From: an uncultured Prochlorococcus sp.
Lineage (GTDB): Bacteria > Cyanobacteriota > Cyanobacteriia > PCC-6307 > Cyanobiaceae
Assembly: GCA_902624105.1 (NCBI GenBank)
Contig: CACNWH010000008.1
Location: 1-49,304, forward strand
DNA: 49,304 bases
Direction of reading: 5' to 3'
Position numbers and translations under genes: made by a program. This document shows, in pieces, positions 13,642 through 40,930 of this stretch. Within the stretch, counting starts at the first letter, position 1. Each line of letters begins with the position of its first letter. The notes below the pieces were generated by a model. The model saw only the letters and a list, made by a program, of their open reading frames with translations. It made no database searches and was not told the origin of the DNA.

Positions 13642-15228
13642 ATGGTTGAAACTTTAGATAAAGAAGAGAGATATCCATCTATTTTGATAATGGATTTTGG
13701 TTCGCAATATTCAGAATTAATTGCGAGAAGAATTAGAGAAGCTAATGTCTTTTCTTTAGTAATAAGTCACCTCACTTCGTTTACTGAAATAAAGGAGTTA
13801 AATCCTAAGGGCATTATTTTAAGTGGTGGACCAAGTTCAGTCTATGAAAATCATGCTCCTTTATGTGATGAAGAAATTTTTAGCTTAGGGATTCCAATCT
13901 TAGGTATTTGTTATGGTATGCAATTAATGGTCAGACAACTTGGAGGAAATGTAACTCCTGCTAAAAATAAATCAGAATACGGAAGGGCGCCTTTATTTAT
14001 TGATAATCAAAGTTTACTCTTGAATAAAGTAAAAGATAAATCAATAATGTGGATGAGTCATGGTGACTCAATTAATCAATTACCAAATAATTTTTTTCAA
14101 ATAGCTCATACGAGTAATACTTCGCATGCTGCAATAGCTAATGAAAAGCAAAATCTATTCGGTGTACAGTTTCATCCTGAGGTTGTACATTCTGAATATG
14201 GATTTACAGTTATTAAAAATTTTGTTTATGAAATATGTAATTGCGAAGCTGACTGGAATGCACAAACTTTTATTGATGAATCTATTCCAATAATTAAAAA
14301 GCAAGTTGGTAATAAGAAAGTTTTATTAGCCCTTTCTGGAGGAGTAGATTCATCAACATTGGCATTCTTATTACATAGAGCAATTGGGGATCAATTAGTT
14401 TGTATGTTTATTGATCAAGGTTTTATGAGAAAAGCTGAGCCAGAATTTCTAATGAGCTTTTTCGATGAAAAATTTCATATAAGAGTTGAATATATTAATT
14501 CTAGAGAACGTTTTATTAATAAACTTAAAGGAGTCACTGATCCTGAAGAAAAGAGGAAAATTATCGGAACAGAATTTATTAGAGTTTTTGAAGAGGAAAG
14601 TAAAAGATTAGGCCCCTTTGACTATTTAGCTCAAGGCACTCTGTACCCAGATGTGATTGAAAGTGCTGGAACAAATGTGGACCCAAAGACTGGAGAAAGG
14701 ATAGCAGTAAAAATTAAAAGTCATCATAATGTAGGAGGTTTACCAAAAGACTTGCAATTTAAATTAGTAGAGCCATTAAGAAAGCTTTTTAAAGATGAGG
14801 TCCGAAATGTCGGCAAAAGTTTGGGTTTGCCAGATGAAATTGTTAGAAGACATCCCTTCCCAGGGCCAGGCTTAGCTATAAGAATATTAGGAGAAGTATC
14901 TAATGAGAAACTTAATTGTTTGCGGGATGCTGATTGGATAGTTAGAGACGAAATAAAGAAAGCTGGTCTCTATAATGAAATTTGGCAAGCTTTTGCAGTT
15001 CTTTTACCAGTTAAAACAGTGGGAGTAATGGGAGATAAAAGAACATATGCATGGCCGATCGTTTTAAGGTGCGTTTCTAGCGAAGATGGGATGACAGCCG
15101 ATTGGTCTAAAATTCCTTTTGTAATCTTAGAGAAAATTTCTAATAGGATCGTGAATGAGGTAGAACAAGTAAATAGAGTTGTATTTGACATTACAAGTAA
15201 ACCTCCAGGAACGATTGAGTGGGAATGA
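13642..15228 (+). CDS. guaA: GMP synthase (glutamine-hydrolysing)
   Basis: Two-domain amidotransferase, 528 aa, that converts XMP to GMP. The N-terminal class I glutaminase has GICYGMQ with nucleophile Cys 90 and the FHPEV histidine/glutamate pair. The ATP pyrophosphatase domain has the PP-loop LSGGVDSS (about residues 231-238), and the dimerisation domain has [15 protein letters not shown] and ends KPPGTIEWE. The gene is intact. Its last 15 bases (15214-15228) are repeated twice downstream and appear to be a site-specific recombination target, so the C-terminus may have been donated by an integrating element. Confidence 0.97.
15214..15228 (+). repeat. guaA 3'-tail repeat, copy 1 (putative attachment core)
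   Basis: ATTGAGTGGGAATGA encodes the last residues IEWE and stop of guaA. Copies with one changed base (GGGAGTGA) lie at 17838 and 17977, same strand. The 3' end of guaA is a known integration hotspot for genomic islands in other bacteria, so this is read as an attachment core; that it is used here is inference. Confidence 0.75.
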
Positions 15229-15232
15229 AAAG

Positions 15233-15270
15233 TAGGGTGTAAACCCAGTTATAGATTCAAAAAGTTGGTT
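15233..15270 (+). repeat. Inverted-repeat block shared with 17996-18033
   Basis: This 38-base block starts five bases after the guaA stop and matches 17996-18033 at 34 of 38 positions. It contains the short inverted repeat GGGT-GTAA-ACCC (15235-15246), conserved as GGGT-ATAA-ACCC in the other copy. Placed between the tail core and the paired 10-mers, it could be part of a recombinase recognition region or a small hairpin. Confidence 0.7.
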
Positions 15271-15289
15271 TCCCGTAGGTTTCCCGTGG
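15267..15289 (+). repeat. Paired direct repeat, TCC type, left pair
   Basis: Two copies of GGTTTCCCGT spaced 11 bases apart, followed by GG. The whole 23-base block is repeated exactly at 17743-17765 on the other side of the methyltransferase gene. Paired 10-mers next to an attachment core resemble arm-type binding sites of tyrosine recombinases; that reading is inference. Confidence 0.75.
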
Positions 15290-15328
15290 AAATTTAATAA
15301 CCTATTTGCAATGGATTTGAGCATAGCA

Positions 15329-15360
15329 GTTTCCCTTAGGTTTCCCGAGGTTTCCCGTGG
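15329..15360 (+). repeat. Triple TCC-type direct repeat, degenerate
   Basis: Three successive units of the same 10-mer: a degenerate GTTTCCCTTA, then GGTTTCCCGA (one base short), then a perfect GGTTTCCCGT followed by GG. It lies 40 bases after the left pair in non-coding DNA. It shares the TCC triplet with the pairs at 15267 and 17743, tying all three to one unit. Confidence 0.7.
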
Positions 15361-15686
15361 AGTGAAAATCCTGTCTCTATAGAGAAATCGTAGAGTTTAA
15401 AATTTCTCTACACTTTCCCCTTTAAATGGTGTTATTTTTTGATTCATGGGAACAAAAGGGATCAACAAAAAATCTTATGTATTAAACAGTTACCTATGTT
15501 GCGTGTTACTCAAGATGCAGAAATATAATACATCCATAAAAGGTTAGGTAGCGATCTTTCAAAAGAAATTGAATATAGAAAGTCTTGGTTATTAAAATTA
15601 TTAATTTAGATAAATCTTTTATTTTCATTAGGTTCAACTACATATTGATTATATGATTTATATTGAGTTTTATTTTGTCATTAGAA

Positions 15687-17606
15687 ATGAAAGGTTTTGG
15701 AGAAAATAATAAACCTAAAAAGAAACTTAGAAGAAATATTCACATAACACACTCTAAAGAACAACTAATTAGACAAGCATTTAAGTTTCACTCAGAGGGC
15801 AATATTTCAGAAGCAGCAAAATATTATCAATATTTGATTAATCAAGGTTTAAATGATTACAGGATTTTTTCTAATTATGCAGGAATTTTACAAGGTCTTG
15901 GCAAATCACAAGAAGCAGAAGTATCACTACGCAAAGCAATTCAACTTAATCCAGAATATGCAGAAGCACATGCAAATCTGGGAATCATATTAAAAGATCT
16001 TGGTAAATCACAAGAAGCATTTGTCTCTTATCTAAAAGTGATTGAAATTAATCCAAATTTACCTGATATTTATGCAACAATCACAAGATTTTTAAAAGAT
16101 TCTGATCTCTCTAAATTAAATAAATCAAAATTAAAATATATATTAAACATTTTACTAGAAAAAAATGATATTTCCCATAATGAATTATCAAGAGCATTTA
16201 ATTTTTTATATAGAAATAAAATAATCCATAGTCTAGAAAAATTTGATTCAGATTTTTCTCAAATAGAATCTCTTATCAATAATAAAATAATAATTAATGC
16301 ACTTAAAAAGATAACTTTTAGGGATATTTTATTGGAGAAATCACTAACCAATTTAAGAAGAAATATAGTTCTTCATATCGCTAAAAATACAAAGAGTATT
16401 AATTACTCTGAATTAAAATTTGTTATCGCTTTAGGTGAACAATGCTTCCTTAATGAATATGTTTACTCATTAACAGAAGAAGAAAATTTATCCCTTGATA
16501 TCATCATAAACAGATGTAAAGATATTGAATTAAATGAAACAGATATTTCGATTTTATCTTGTTATTTTCCTCTATATAAACTTCTTGATCAAATACCATC
16601 CTTAGAATCTTTTAATTCTCCTAATAAAATTTTTAAAGAACTAATAGAATTGCAAATAATTGAACCTCTAAAAGAAATTCAATTATCCCAAAATATCAAA
16701 AGAATAGGTTCAATTAGTGACAATGTTTCTCAAAAAGTAAAAATTCAATATGAAGAAAATCCATATCCTAGATGGAGATATGGAAATTATCAAGAAAATC
16801 AAAAGTTATCTATCAATCAAGCAATTAATATTGAAATCAAACCTAACTACATCAATAAAAAAGAAGAAGAGCATCAATTAAACATACTCATTGCTGGATG
16901 TGGTACGGGTAATCAAATCTTACAAGCACAGAGGTATAAAAACGCTCAAATAACTGCTATAGATTTAAGTTTATCTAGTCTTGCTTATGCTCAACGTAAA
17001 ATGAATGAACTTGAGATTGATAAAGTTGAATTGATTGAGATGGATATCTTAGAAGTTAGTTTATTAGAAAAACAATTTGATGTTATTGAATGTAGTGGCG
17101 TTTTACACCATATGAACGATCCCTTCATAGGTTTGAAAGCATTGTTAGGAGTTGCAAAAAAAAATGGTTATCTTAAATTAGGTTTATATAGCGAACTAGC
17201 AAGACAAGATATAATCAAAGCAAGGAATCATATTGCCGGCAAAAATTTAAAAACAACATCAAATGATATTCGTCGGTTCAGACAAGATGTAATTTCTGGA
17301 ACTTACCCAGAGATTGCAAATCTTCAAAAGAGATCTAGTTTTTATTCAATTTCAGAATGCCGTGATCTATGCTTTCACGCAAAAGAACATAGATTTACCA
17401 TTAACCAGTTACAAGAAACTCTCAAATCTAATGAATTAGAGTTTCTTGGATTTTTGCTCCCCACACCAGTTCAATCTATCTATAAGCAGTATTTCCCTGA
17501 AGATAAAAAACAAACCAACTTACAAAAATGGGCAAAGTTTGAGGAAAAATATCCTAATACTTTCAGAGGAATGTATCAGTTCTGGGTTTCGAAAATTTCT
17601 TCCTGA
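15687..17606 (+). CDS. Modular TPR protein with C-terminal SAM-dependent methyltransferase
   Basis: 639 aa from the ATG at 15687; a TTG eight codons upstream is possible, but the second island protein also begins MKGFGE, which fixes this start. Residues 1-25 are a basic leader (GFGENNKPKKKLRR). TPR units follow to about 135 (GNISEAAKYYQYLINQG, LGKSQEAEVSLRKAIQLNP, a further LGKSQEAF repeat). About 135-350 is helical with no recognised domain. A class I methyltransferase fills the rest: entry motif YEENPYPRW (from residue 356), SAM-binding ILIAGCGTGNQ (about 400-410), acidic ITAIDLS, and CSGVLHHMNDP (from 469). The substrate is unknown; proteins of this design are typical of Prochlorococcus variable islands and are often linked to cell-surface or protein modification. 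It sits between two guaA-tail repeats. Confidence 0.88.
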   Translation: MKGFGENNKPKKKLRRNIHITHSKEQLIRQAFKFHSEGNISEAAKYYQYLINQGLNDYRIFSNYAGILQGLGKSQEAEVSLRKAIQLNPEYAEAHANLGIILKDLGKSQEAFVSYLKVIEINPNLPDIYATITRFLKDSDLSKLNKSKLKYILNILLEKNDISHNELSRAFNFLYRNKIIHSLEKFDSDFSQIESLINNKIIINALKKITFRDILLEKSLTNLRRNIVLHIAKNTKSINYSELKFVIALGEQCFLNEYVYSLTEEENLSLDIIINRCKDIELNETDISILSCYFPLYKLLDQIPSLESFNSPNKIFKELIELQIIEPLKEIQLSQNIKRIGSISDNVSQKVKIQYEENPYPRWRYGNYQENQKLSINQAINIEIKPNYINKKEEEHQLNILIAGCGTGNQILQAQRYKNAQITAIDLSLSSLAYAQRKMNELEIDKVELIEMDILEVSLLEKQFDVIECSGVLHHMNDPFIGLKALLGVAKKNGYLKLGLYSELARQDIIKARNHIAGKNLKTTSNDIRRFRQDVISGTYPEIANLQKRSSFYSISECRDLCFHAKEHRFTINQLQETLKSNELEFLGFLLPTPVQSIYKQYFPEDKKQTNLQKWAKFEEKYPNTFRGMYQFWVSKISS

Positions 17607-17742
17607 ATACTAAAAAGTATCTATGTTTAATAGTTTGTTTAAAAATGTGTACACACTTAACAACATTCGTATGAATATAAAATGAAATCTCCACTAAAGT
17701 ATCGTAGTAAACCTTTTTCGCTGAGAATGGTTATGAATACTG

Positions 17743-17765
17743 GGTTTCCCGTAGGTTTCCCGTGG
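17743..17765 (+). repeat. Paired direct repeat, TCC type, right pair
   Basis: Two GGTTTCCCGT units at 11-base spacing plus GG, identical over 23 bases to 15267-15289 and in the same orientation. It lies 73 bases before guaA-tail copy 2, so the methyltransferase unit has TCC-type pairs at both ends, as expected of an element with arm sites next to both attachment junctions. Confidence 0.75.
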
Positions 17766-17837
17766 AAAAATGTGTGTTATTATGGGGTCAAACATGTTGC
17801 TATGACTGTGTTTTTATTTGCAACTTTTGGCGGTACT

Positions 17838-17852
17838 ATTGAGTGGGAGTGA
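17838..17852 (+). repeat. guaA 3'-tail repeat, copy 2 (putative attachment core)
   Basis: ATTGAGTGGGAGTGA, differing from the guaA end by one synonymous base (GAG for GAA). Preceding bases continue the protein match: GGT-ACT-ATT-GAG-TGG-GAG-TGA reads GTIEWE-stop, the exact GuaA C-terminus. Conservation at codon level suggests the copy once ended, or can end, a guaA gene. Confidence 0.75.
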
Positions 17853-17890
17853 CGGAAAATTCGCCCATTTCGTGAATAATTGAATTTTTT

Positions 17891-17915
17891 GGTTTTACGT
17901 GGGTTTTACGTAAAA
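17891..17915 (+). repeat. Paired direct repeat, TTA type
   Basis: Two GGTTTTACGT units at 11-base spacing, ending in a perfect 12-base palindrome TTTTACGTAAAA (17904-17915). It has the frame GGTT-nnn-CGT of the TCC pairs but triplet TTA in both members. It follows tail copy 2 by 38 bases. Confidence 0.7.
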
Positions 17916-17976
17916 ATCTTATATTTATAAATCTAGTGAAATCAATGGGTTTCAAGGATAAAAATTGGGTGGTTCT

Positions 17977-17991
17977 ATTGAGTGGGAGTGA
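17977..17991 (+). repeat. guaA 3'-tail repeat, copy 3 (putative attachment core)
   Basis: ATTGAGTGGGAGTGA, identical to copy 2. Upstream codons read GGT-GGT-TCT, giving GGSIEWE-stop, close to the GuaA end PGTIEWE. Five bases after the stop begins the block 17996-18033 that matches the DNA right after the real guaA stop at 34 of 38 positions. Confidence 0.75.
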
Positions 17992-17995
17992 TCGA

Positions 17996-18033
17996 TAGGG
18001 TATAAACCCAGTTATAGTTTTAAAAAGTAGGTT
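17996..18033 (+). repeat. Inverted-repeat block shared with 15233-15270
   Basis: Matches the block downstream of guaA at 34 of 38 positions and keeps the inverted repeat GGGT-ATAA-ACCC (17998-18009). Together with tail copy 3 and the following pair it makes a duplicate of the whole guaA 3' junction, 17977-18049 against 15214-15289. Confidence 0.7.
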
Positions 18034-18049
18034 ACACGTGGGTTACACA
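18030..18049 (+). repeat. Paired direct repeat, ACA type
   Basis: GGTTACACGT followed at 11-base spacing by GGTTACACAC. The frame GGTT-nnn-C is the same as in the other pairs, with triplet ACA in both members. It is the last repeat before the glycosyltransferase gene; no right-hand partner of ACA type was found further downstream. Confidence 0.65.
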
Positions 18050-18263
18050 CAAGAAAAATTATATTATTTTATGCTTTAAATCCATTTATATCATTGTGTT
18101 CTTAATTCTGTGATTTCTTCATTGCTTAATAGTGATTAGTGATTTCCTAATTAAGATTAGAATATATCAGAAGATAATAATAATTTCTTATTCAGTTAAA
18201 AATATGAAAAAATAAGTAATAAAGGGAATCATTTATTCTTATTTCATATTGGATATTTGAAAG

Positions 18264-20243
18264 ATGAAAGGTTTTGGAGAAGATAAAGAAAAGATTTCTT
18301 TAAAAAAAATTAATCCTCCTCCAACCGAAGAGATTATTCATGCTGCAATTCAATTTCAATTAAGAGGCAATCTTAAAGAAGCAAGTAAGTATTATAGATA
18401 TTGTTTGGATAATGGTATTAATGACCCAAGAATTTTTTGTAATTATGGATTAATTTTGAGGGAGTTGGGTGATTTAAGTAATGCTCAATTAATGATGCAG
18501 AAATCAATTGAAATTTCTCCAAATGATACTGCTGCTTATCATAATCTTTCAGGTATTTTAAAAGAACTAGGTCAATATAATGATGCGGAGGCTATCTTAA
18601 ATAAATGCTTGGAAATAGATCAAGATAATTCAATAACCTTAAATAATCTTGGTAATATTTTAATTTTTCAAGGCAAACCTAATAAAGCGGAATTAATTTT
18701 CAAAAAGGCAATCTCAGTTAATAAGAATGATCATAATGCATATTTAAATTTAGGTACTTGTATGAAAATTTTTGGAAATATCACAAAAGCTATTGAATAT
18801 ACTCTTAAATCTATTGATATAAAATCCAACAATCCTACAGCATATAGTCATCTTGGAGAGTTTTTTAGAATATCTGGTGATTATAAAAAAGCAATTATCA
18901 ACTATGAGAAAGTTTTAGATTTTAATAAAAATCATGCATCTGCAAGATATGGTTTATTGAAATGTAAGAGTTTAATTTGTGATTGGAATAATTTTGATAA
19001 TGATCTTATTTGGATAAATTCTCTTGGTTTAAAAGGTGATCCTGTAGATCCATATCTTTTTTTTCTTTATGAAGACAATCCAATAAATCATTTAAAAAGA
19101 GCAAAAAGATATTCAAGGATGAATTTTCAAAGAAATAATATGTTTAAGCAAAAATCTAAAAATAGTCAAAAAATTCGGATAGGTTATTTTTCTGCAGATT
19201 TTAGGGATCATCCAGTAACGCATATGATACTCTCCTTTTTAGAATTACATGATAAAAATAAATTTGAAATATTTTTATATTCATTTACTTTAAAAGAAGA
19301 CAAATATACAAATATTCTTAAAAATTTAGGATTTAATTTTAAAGATATAAAAGAATTAAATGAATTTGAAATAATAAAATTAGTTAGATCAGATAACTTA
19401 AGTATTGCTGTCGATCTTATGGGTTATACAGATAAAAATAGGACAATAATTTTTAGTCATAGAGTTGCTCCCATTCAAATAAATTATTTAGGCTTCCCAG
19501 GTACTCTGGGTTCAAAATATTATGATTTTATTGTTAGCGATAAAATTGTTATCCCTAAAAAATATGAAAGATTTTATACAGAAAAAGTAGTAAAGCTAAA
19601 AAATTTTTTTCCTCCAAATCTATCCCCAAGAAATATATCTTCAGGGAAAAATTATTTAAGAAGTGATTTTAAGATTCCAGAAAATGTATTTGTTTTTACA
19701 TGCTTTAATGGGAATCAAAAAATTACATACAAAGAATTTGATATTTGGATGCAACTTCTTAATGAAATTAAAGATAGTATCTTATGGCTAAGAAAATCAA
19801 ATAGCTACTCTATTGTGAATTTAAGAGAGGAGGCTAAAAAAAGAAATATTGATCCAGATAGGATATTTTTTGCAGAAAGATTAGAAAATAAAGAACAACA
19901 TTTGGCTAGATATCAAATTAGTGATTTGGGATTGGATACATTTAATTACAATGGACATACCACTACTTCAGATGCTTTATGGTCAGGATTACCTGTTCTA
20001 TCAAAAATAGGTCATAGTTTTGCATCTAGAGTTTCAGCAAGTATTTTAAACTCTGTTAATCTTGACGAATTAGTAGTATCTACAGATCATGAATATACTA
20101 AGAAAGCTTTATATTTTGCACAAAATAGAGAGGAGTTAGAAAAGCTGAAGCTTAAATTGAGAGATATCAAGGACAAAAATCTTATCTACTCTGAAAACTA
20201 TGTAAAAGATCTCGAGTCTTTATATATTAAGATTATTAATTAA
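18264..20243 (+). CDS. Modular TPR protein with C-terminal OGT-like (GT41) glycosyltransferase
   Basis: 659 aa. Leader MKGFGEDKEKISLKK is shared in design with the protein at 15687, as is the following GNLKEASKYYRYCLDNG and NDPRIFCNY region. About six TPR units run to about residue 245. From 305 the protein resembles SPINDLY/O-GlcNAc transferase (family GT41): GYFSADFRDHPVTHM (from 307), VDLMGYTD, QINYLGFPGTLGSKYYDF, FNGNQKITYKEF with a Lys in the position that binds UDP in OGT, and YNGHTTTSDALWSG (about 562-575) followed by ASRVSASIL. These are donor-binding and catalytic signatures, so it is probably active on a protein Ser/Thr or on a glycan; acceptor unknown. It is an island gene following tail copy 3. 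Confidence 0.9.
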   Translation: MKGFGEDKEKISLKKINPPPTEEIIHAAIQFQLRGNLKEASKYYRYCLDNGINDPRIFCNYGLILRELGDLSNAQLMMQKSIEISPNDTAAYHNLSGILKELGQYNDAEAILNKCLEIDQDNSITLNNLGNILIFQGKPNKAELIFKKAISVNKNDHNAYLNLGTCMKIFGNITKAIEYTLKSIDIKSNNPTAYSHLGEFFRISGDYKKAIINYEKVLDFNKNHASARYGLLKCKSLICDWNNFDNDLIWINSLGLKGDPVDPYLFFLYEDNPINHLKRAKRYSRMNFQRNNMFKQKSKNSQKIRIGYFSADFRDHPVTHMILSFLELHDKNKFEIFLYSFTLKEDKYTNILKNLGFNFKDIKELNEFEIIKLVRSDNLSIAVDLMGYTDKNRTIIFSHRVAPIQINYLGFPGTLGSKYYDFIVSDKIVIPKKYERFYTEKVVKLKNFFPPNLSPRNISSGKNYLRSDFKIPENVFVFTCFNGNQKITYKEFDIWMQLLNEIKDSILWLRKSNSYSIVNLREEAKKRNIDPDRIFFAERLENKEQHLARYQISDLGLDTFNYNGHTTTSDALWSGLPVLSKIGHSFASRVSASILNSVNLDELVVSTDHEYTKKALYFAQNREELEKLKLKLRDIKDKNLIYSENYVKDLESLYIKIIN

Positions 20244-40773: not shown

Positions 40774-40930
40774 TTTAAAAATAAAATTTTTAATACATTA
40801 AAAGAATTATGAGTTAATACTCTCGGTATATATACCTATATCTTTACATTAATGTTCTATATTACATATTTTTGAAGCAAAAATTACATGATTTAACAAG
40901 ATTATTTACGGCCACTTAATTATTTTTTTA

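Follow-up and report, generated by a model that had tools for sequence, protein, structure and literature searches.

In a 49,304-nucleotide stretch of DNA from an uncultured Prochlorococcus sp. (contig CACNWH010000008.1; "the window" below means this whole stretch), tandem pairs of 10-mers of the form GGTT-NNN-CGT lie around the 3' end of guaA, the gene for GMP synthase, and around further copies of that end. What are these pairs, and why does the middle triplet differ from pair to pair? Sequence comparison suggests, with a probability that we put at about 87%, that they are arm-type sites of a family of tyrosine integrases recombining at the guaA 3' end, and that they flank cargo elements which mostly lack an integrase and resemble cis-mobilizable elements (CIMEs). 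This reading is supported by the position and orientation of the pairs, by the matching of the two ends of an element, by pairs in the same layout at guaA integrases, and by covariation of the repeat units with the N-terminal part of these integrases.

Paired repeats at the guaA 3' end

The guaA gene of the window (13642..15228) encodes a protein of 528 amino acids with the Pfam domains GMP_synt_C and GATase. Its 3' end, the integration site (attB/attL), closes with the tail GAGTGGGAATGA (15217-15228). Exact copies of this tail at 17841..17852 (repeat D3) and 17980..17991 (repeats D2 and D3) form the junctions between elements 1 and 2 and between elements 2 and 3, respectively. All of these features, and those listed below for the window, are on the + strand. 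The variable part of the unit is referred to here as the code of an element. Element 1 (code TCC) spans 15229-17852, and element 2 (code TTA) is a remnant of 139 bp.

The pattern GGTT-NNN-CGT-N-GGTT-NNN-CGT was found in the window exactly at 15267, 17743 and 17891 and with 2 mismatches at 18030, always on the + strand, while 0.02 matches with up to 2 mismatches were expected by chance. The pairs and their triplets TCC, TCC, TTA and ACA were thus as the earlier note had described them. That note had placed each pair behind a copy of the guaA tail. This holds for pair 1 of element 1 (15267..15287, TCC/TCC), for the pair of element 2 (17891..17911, TTA/TTA) and for the pair of element 3 (18030..18050, ACA/ACA, with the last unit ending in CAC), each of which starts 50 bp behind the start of a tail. 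It does not hold for the TCC/TCC pair at 17743..17763, which stands 98 bp before the tail at 17841 and is the distal pair, at the far end of the element beginning behind guaA. Missed at first was a second arm cluster of element 1, consisting of three TCC-type units at spacings of 11 and 10 bp (15328..15358, repeat family D1); it starts 61 bp after pair 1, the same distance as in relatives. For the far end of element 3, neither an exact guaA-tail copy nor a motif pair was found further downstream in the window.

A count of the exact pattern in 266 genomes of this genus, among them that of the window, gave 93 matches in 51 genomes, with triplets that were nearly always TCA, TTA, ACA or TCC. Distances to guaA tails were taken in 53 regions around these matches, the window included, at offsets chosen after a first look at the pair-to-tail distances. 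The expected clustering at guaA was borne out, as 88 of the 93 exact pairs stood at a fixed distance from a tail copy: +50 (29 pairs), +111 (10), +120 (15), -98 (24), -109 (4), -90 (4) and -78 (2). Five regions held exceptions (G101, G177, G199, G252 and G256; such labels are our handles for the sequences compared); in G199 and G256 the pairs are directly behind guaA, where the tail expression missed the stop or the match is a further unit. No exact pair was on the opposite strand, which is partly so by construction, with orientation taken from guaA in 47 of the 53 regions and from the motif in 6.

Could the pairs be chance or low-complexity matches? Two IMG/VR contigs do contain a TCC pair, in stretches of high GC content; they match neither guaA nor, at a significant level, an integrase, and the hits are unrelated. 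The control counts refute this explanation, and we regard its probability as negligible: beside the 0.02 matches expected in the window and the fixed registers, the reversed pattern gave only 5 matches, in 4 of the same 266 genomes, against 93. The concern that the pattern might be common at random places was therefore not confirmed.

In a typical element, with all distances taken from start point to start point, pair 1 begins 50 bp behind the guaA tail and pair 2 another 61-62 bp on; the cargo comes next, and a distal pair stands 98 bp ahead of the next guaA tail. Relative to the tail starts, the pairs of the left end are at about +50 and +111 bp and that of the right end at about -98 bp. Arm-type sites are expected to recur as short repeats at fixed places flanking a core; such repeats were found here and also in integrase-bearing elements. 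In most TTA elements the pairs stand 120 bp past one tail and 78-90 bp ahead of the following one; the TTA elements of L145 and L086 have a lone unit at about 49 bp past the guaA tail and no pair before +120, unlike elements of other codes. Elements also form tandem arrays, such as TCA, TCC, ACA in G199 and TCCCTC, TCACGT, TTTGTTGC, TTACGT in G061. Behind the second arm cluster of the window comes a short inverted repeat, TCTCTATAGAGA (15374-15385); it is at the same place in L086 and altered in L134 and L137. It is present in many elements and stands directly before the integrase start where one exists.

Covariation of the units within an element

Both members of a pair change together, as proposed: the triplets of the two units were identical in 86 of the 93 exact pairs and in 121 of 134 pairs when up to 2 mismatches were allowed, and pair 1 agreed with pair 2 in 12/12 cases, all of these being counts over related sequences and not over independent events. 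The agreement extends to the far end. Of 25 elements, 0.7-8.3 kb long, 24 had the same triplet in their first and last pair, whereas 100,000 shuffles gave a mean of 7.7 and a maximum of 18; not included in this count were the second G257 region and the regions G009x, G138x, G038x and G089x. Pairs on either side of one guaA tail, only 139-218 bp apart, agreed in 2 of 11 cases, both TTA. Since random end pairs would agree in about 31% (7.7/25), neighbours across a tail are no more alike than strangers.

A test free of any reading frame, restricted to elements with a tandem of at least 8/10 matches in both of the windows compared, gave a mean end-to-end distance of 0.86 in 48 elements versus 3.59 between different elements (p 5e-5) and revealed further codes. 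The covariation described at first for a triplet is therefore real, but the variable part of the unit is wider than three bases in related elements. Twelve code classes, named beforehand from earlier unit readings, were present among 101 left ends in 66 regions. An apparent avoidance of equal codes within one array was also considered. With strict classes, 1 of 48 pairs was of the same code (shuffle mean 5.7, p 0.0145), but looser classes gave 7 of 68 (mean 8.8, p 0.34), or 2 of 31 without TTA (mean 3.6, p 0.28), and the idea was dropped.

The ends might match only by descent, each element type being one lineage whose differing letters have no function. Elements of the same code are indeed related, so that the counts are not independent events, and outside the units the ends are homologous between codes, as in the common TTTGCAATGG between the pairs. 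However, the same change is found in at least six units, spread over two ends with kilobases between them, while the stretch that separates the pairs remains similar, and descent alone does not make separate units change together. Cargo has moreover been exchanged between codes, and the units track the N-terminal part of the integrase, as shown below. We consider an explanation by descent alone very improbable.

Integrases behind guaA and their N-terminal part

Tyrosine integrases adjoin guaA in Prochlorococcus and relatives. A search profile built from four integrases that were first seen behind guaA among the matches listed found five close relatives in the 266 genomes, each behind guaA (G114, G148, G178, G183 and G186), and a sixth, distant match in G138. 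A sample of 300 genomes from the family, which included some of the same genus, gave matches in 16. Eight new integrases were in one locus with guaA (G517, G449, G276, G514, G508, G274, G341 and G475), G349 held a decayed copy about 2 kb behind a guaA-tail copy, and the G545 integrase, close to that of G508, was a further addition. An integrase sequence search of another genome-contig collection gave 5 loci, and four of the integrase-bearing relatives go under the name Prochlorococcus in that collection. Viral contigs contained no integrase relative, no guaA tail with a pair and no TTA, TCA, ACA or ATA pair; phage records gave no integrase match, and plasmids gave one distant match (21.8%). 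The PF00589 integrases nearest to motif pairs in G009, G138, G038 and G089 were about 12-25 kb away; those of G009, G138 and G038 matched the guaA integrases at only 19-22% and were set aside.

Paired units were found on both sides of integrase-bearing elements, for example in G186, G114, G148, G178, G276, G508, G274, G449 and G475. The arm units read GTTTCCCGT in G186, GTTTCACGT in G517 and G514, GTTTCACAC in G276, GTTTGTTGC in G114, GTTTCACCY in G449 and G475, CTCACC in G178, CTACCCC in G508, G274 and G545, and TCACACA in G148, G183 and G341. A tyrosine integrase, present or former, was thereby found for 8 of the 12 codes.

The earlier note had proposed binding sites that track the specificity of different recombinases, like arm-type sites, and the arm sequence was found to follow the N-terminal part of the guaA-adjoining integrases. 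In Mantel tests with 11 integrases (L116, which is partial, the interrupted G341 and G475, the decayed G349, and G545, which is close to G508, were left out), arm distance correlated with the distance in the N-terminal part (alignment columns 1-97) with r 0.772 (p 1.5e-4) and with the rest of the integrase with r 0.447 (p 0.0095). The partial correlations were 0.71 for the N-terminal part given the rest (p 1.5e-4) and 0.13 for the rest given the N-terminal part (p 0.24). The frame of G148 and G183 is arbitrary, and with these two removed the values were 0.768 (p 0.0016) versus 0.214 (p 0.12) for the N-terminal part and the rest, respectively. With the seven distinct arms only, they were 0.657 (p 0.03) versus -0.048 (p 0.55), and with G148 added to these seven, 0.643 (p 0.012) versus 0.395 (p 0.17).

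Xis sites are as a rule found in one arm, and iterons lie beside the rep gene. Short tandem direct repeats are typical of both, and the pairs could accordingly serve a different element-specific protein, for instance an excision factor (Xis, or recombination directionality factor) or a replication initiator, instead of the integrase N-terminal domain. We hold this to be unlikely, as the repeats stand on both sides of the junction at fixed distances and track the N-terminal part of the integrase and not the rest.

The N-terminal domain of lambda-type integrases binds arm sites beside the core, and the rest of the protein binds and cuts the core. A common core, the guaA tail, with arms that differ together with the N-terminal part fits this division of labour. 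For the arm-site reading, the covariation suggests that the N-terminal domain of the guaA integrases would bind the pairs and that the unit sequence would decide which integrase integrates or excises which element; here we infer the step from recognition to selective excision or integration. Elements of different code share one attB and stack there, and most of those examined, being without an integrase, could move only with an integrase of the same code from another element.

The N-terminal part was predicted to fold as strand-strand-strand-helix (71-aa domain model, mean pLDDT 74). An arm-binding domain is described in PMC8138268, where Tn916-type integrases have an N-terminal domain of three strands and one helix. 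For the catalytic part, the best PDB sequence matches were chains named Integrase and Int protein (3nkh, 6en0 and 6emy), and XerA and XerH also matched. Residue 49 (G186 numbering), in the second predicted strand (48-52), may be a place where the unit is read. It is Gln in seven integrases with TCAC in the unit (G517, G514, G449, G475, G276, G178 and G349; ..TTTCAC.. or ..CTCAC..) and Tyr in G186, with arms reading ..TTTCCC... Less simple cases are L116, with Gln and an CTACACAC unit, and G148 and G183, with Tyr and a unit containing TCAC in another frame, and residue 49 as a reading rule is a lead, not a result.

Several points weigh against the arm-site reading. The ends of the elements in G055 and G264 are unlike, for which a fusion of two neighbours by deletion would account. 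Some integrase-bearing ends have an incomplete pair (pair 1 of G514 and the distal end of G517), and no integrase was found for 4 of the 12 codes, namely TTACGT, ACACGT, TGTCAC and TCCCTY. The correlations, r 0.772 included, come from a small number of related sequences with arm units read and framed by hand. Foldseek returned no match at E 0.001 or better: with the low-confidence full model, lambda Int (1z1b) ranked third at E 0.096 and probability 0.96, and nothing useful came from the 71-aa domain model. A close guaA integrase was found in none of the 51 motif-bearing genomes (G138 had the distant one only), and helpers are rare among the examined genomes; mobilisation in trans is therefore a possibility and not an observation.

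For the TTA and ACA codes of the window, a link to an integrase is suggested by analogy. A stronger version of the arm-site reading makes the arm unit an identity code. There would be some twelve mutually specific pairs of integrase and arm site at one attB, the elements would stack and move one by one, and integrase-less cargo (defence genes, TPR proteins) would be carried by any arriving integrase of the same code. This version is tentative, and we would give it somewhat less than even odds.

Other features of these integrases were observed as well. On L116 (3741-5643), a contig labelled proteobacterium, a related integrase start (55% over 173 residues) stands behind a homogentisate dioxygenase gene with paired CTACACAC units, and the integrase family seems to use another target gene there. 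Integrase-bearing guaA elements (L086:8748-9338 and L087:5877-7868) also encode a small serine resolvase (PF00239) and a primase-like protein (DUF5906, PHROG 864), a content that resembles small integrative elements or phage satellites. Residues 381 and 407 of the G186 integrase (alignment A2), which we take to be the places of two catalytic histidines of lambda Int, seem to hold Tyr and Val/Ile/Ser in these integrases; the active site may be unusual, or we may have misplaced the positions.

Orphan cargo elements and related systems

Element 1 of the window contains the decayed start of a guaA-type integrase (15448..15579). Here, 45 residues are 55.6% identical to the start of the TCC-coded G186 integrase, with an in-frame stop (E 8e-7), and among 14 integrase queries only G186 matched this remnant at E 0.01. 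A TCC-type remnant inside a TCC element indicates that the element most likely once had an integrase of the TCC-coded kind. The other integrase-less cargo elements in 89 regions had no recognisable piece of a guaA integrase, matches in G138, G239 and G264 being to other integrase types, and the window's own genome (67% complete) had no PF00589 match. As in CIMEs, most of the elements are flanked by att sites and lack an integrase, as seen from the search for close guaA integrases in the 51 motif-bearing genomes and from the open reading frames of 17 stretches.

The cargo of element 1 is a TPR protein with a methyltransferase domain (15663..17606) and that of element 3 a TPR protein with a glycosyltransferase family 41 domain (18264..20243), both assigned by Pfam. 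The cargo genes at 15687 and 18264, in elements of different code, have the common start ATGAAAGGTTTTGGAGAA (22/23 bases, repeat D10), and both encode TPR repeats followed by different enzyme domains. Among the cargo examined are a type IIG restriction enzyme, an HKD/Snf2 protein, restriction helicases and TPR proteins. Homologous cargo occurs under different codes, such as helicases that are 63% identical in TCC and ACA elements, and ends and cargo have therefore been exchanged. Small elements of different code (L037:2123-3703, L086:10894-12216 and L067:8735-10249) encode TPR proteins with the common start MKKRTAFIGAILSL, two of which were scanned and gave a weak match to a matrixin-like protease. 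ARAGORN found only a tmRNA in the window, at 40912.

The papers compared here are cited from their accessible parts. The earlier note knew of no description of such a triplet code, but comparable arm covariation has been reported: in Cluster K mycobacteriophages, paired 11-bp repeats have been put forward as arm-type sites, these repeats vary at one position from phage to phage in step with residues 17 and 19 in the N-terminal part of the integrase, and Pixie and Tweety have a common core and different arm sites (PMC3203893). The guaA elements are alike in having paired arm repeats that vary with the integrase N-terminus. They differ in that the Cluster K case concerns a few phages, each having a single integrase and a tmRNA or tRNA site, whereas the guaA elements have twelve codes at one protein-gene attB, stand in tandem and mostly lack an integrase. 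Serine recombinases are not known to have arm-type sites in the lambda sense. Such a recombinase is the integrase at ssrA of Dehalococcoides, where islands are likewise stacked at one gene end, in tandem and bounded by direct repeats of it, and 15 islands without an integration module were called possible cis-mobilizable elements (PMC3146451). CIMEs have lost the integrase and transfer genes, keep attL and attR and are stacked at the end of the target gene by later insertions; the guaA elements are likewise att-flanked, integrase-less and stacked, and the accessible part of that account does not mention an arm code for CIMEs (PMC5704250). The same source lists ATE-1, the Brucella IncP island and GIsul2 as tyrosine-recombinase elements at the guaA 3' end, which share the target gene end and the recombinase type and have other hosts (PMC5704250). 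Tycheposons and additive flexible genomic islands offer Prochlorococcus cargo elements with a tyrosine recombinase and islands with repeated target-gene ends; they are described at tRNA genes, whereas the site of the present elements is guaA (PMC10872708). On Prochlorococcus guaA integrases or islands, no title or abstract on this site was found in a search that left most subscription papers outside.

Arm covariation with the integrase N-terminus, integrase-less stacked elements and guaA as a target were thus already known. What is new is that so many codes occur at one attB and are stacked there, and that orphan cargo elements have matching ends. Related integrases with one core and different arms would allow the specificity of the arm-binding domain to be decoded by comparison, in a form testable by swapping one small domain or residue. 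Should the pairs prove orthogonal, tools for insertion at one site would be at hand as a ready-made set. The paired units also offer a way to find such islands by sequence, and they would serve as a definite rule for matching helpers to the orphan cargo islands that these could move in Prochlorococcus, a phototroph of very high abundance.

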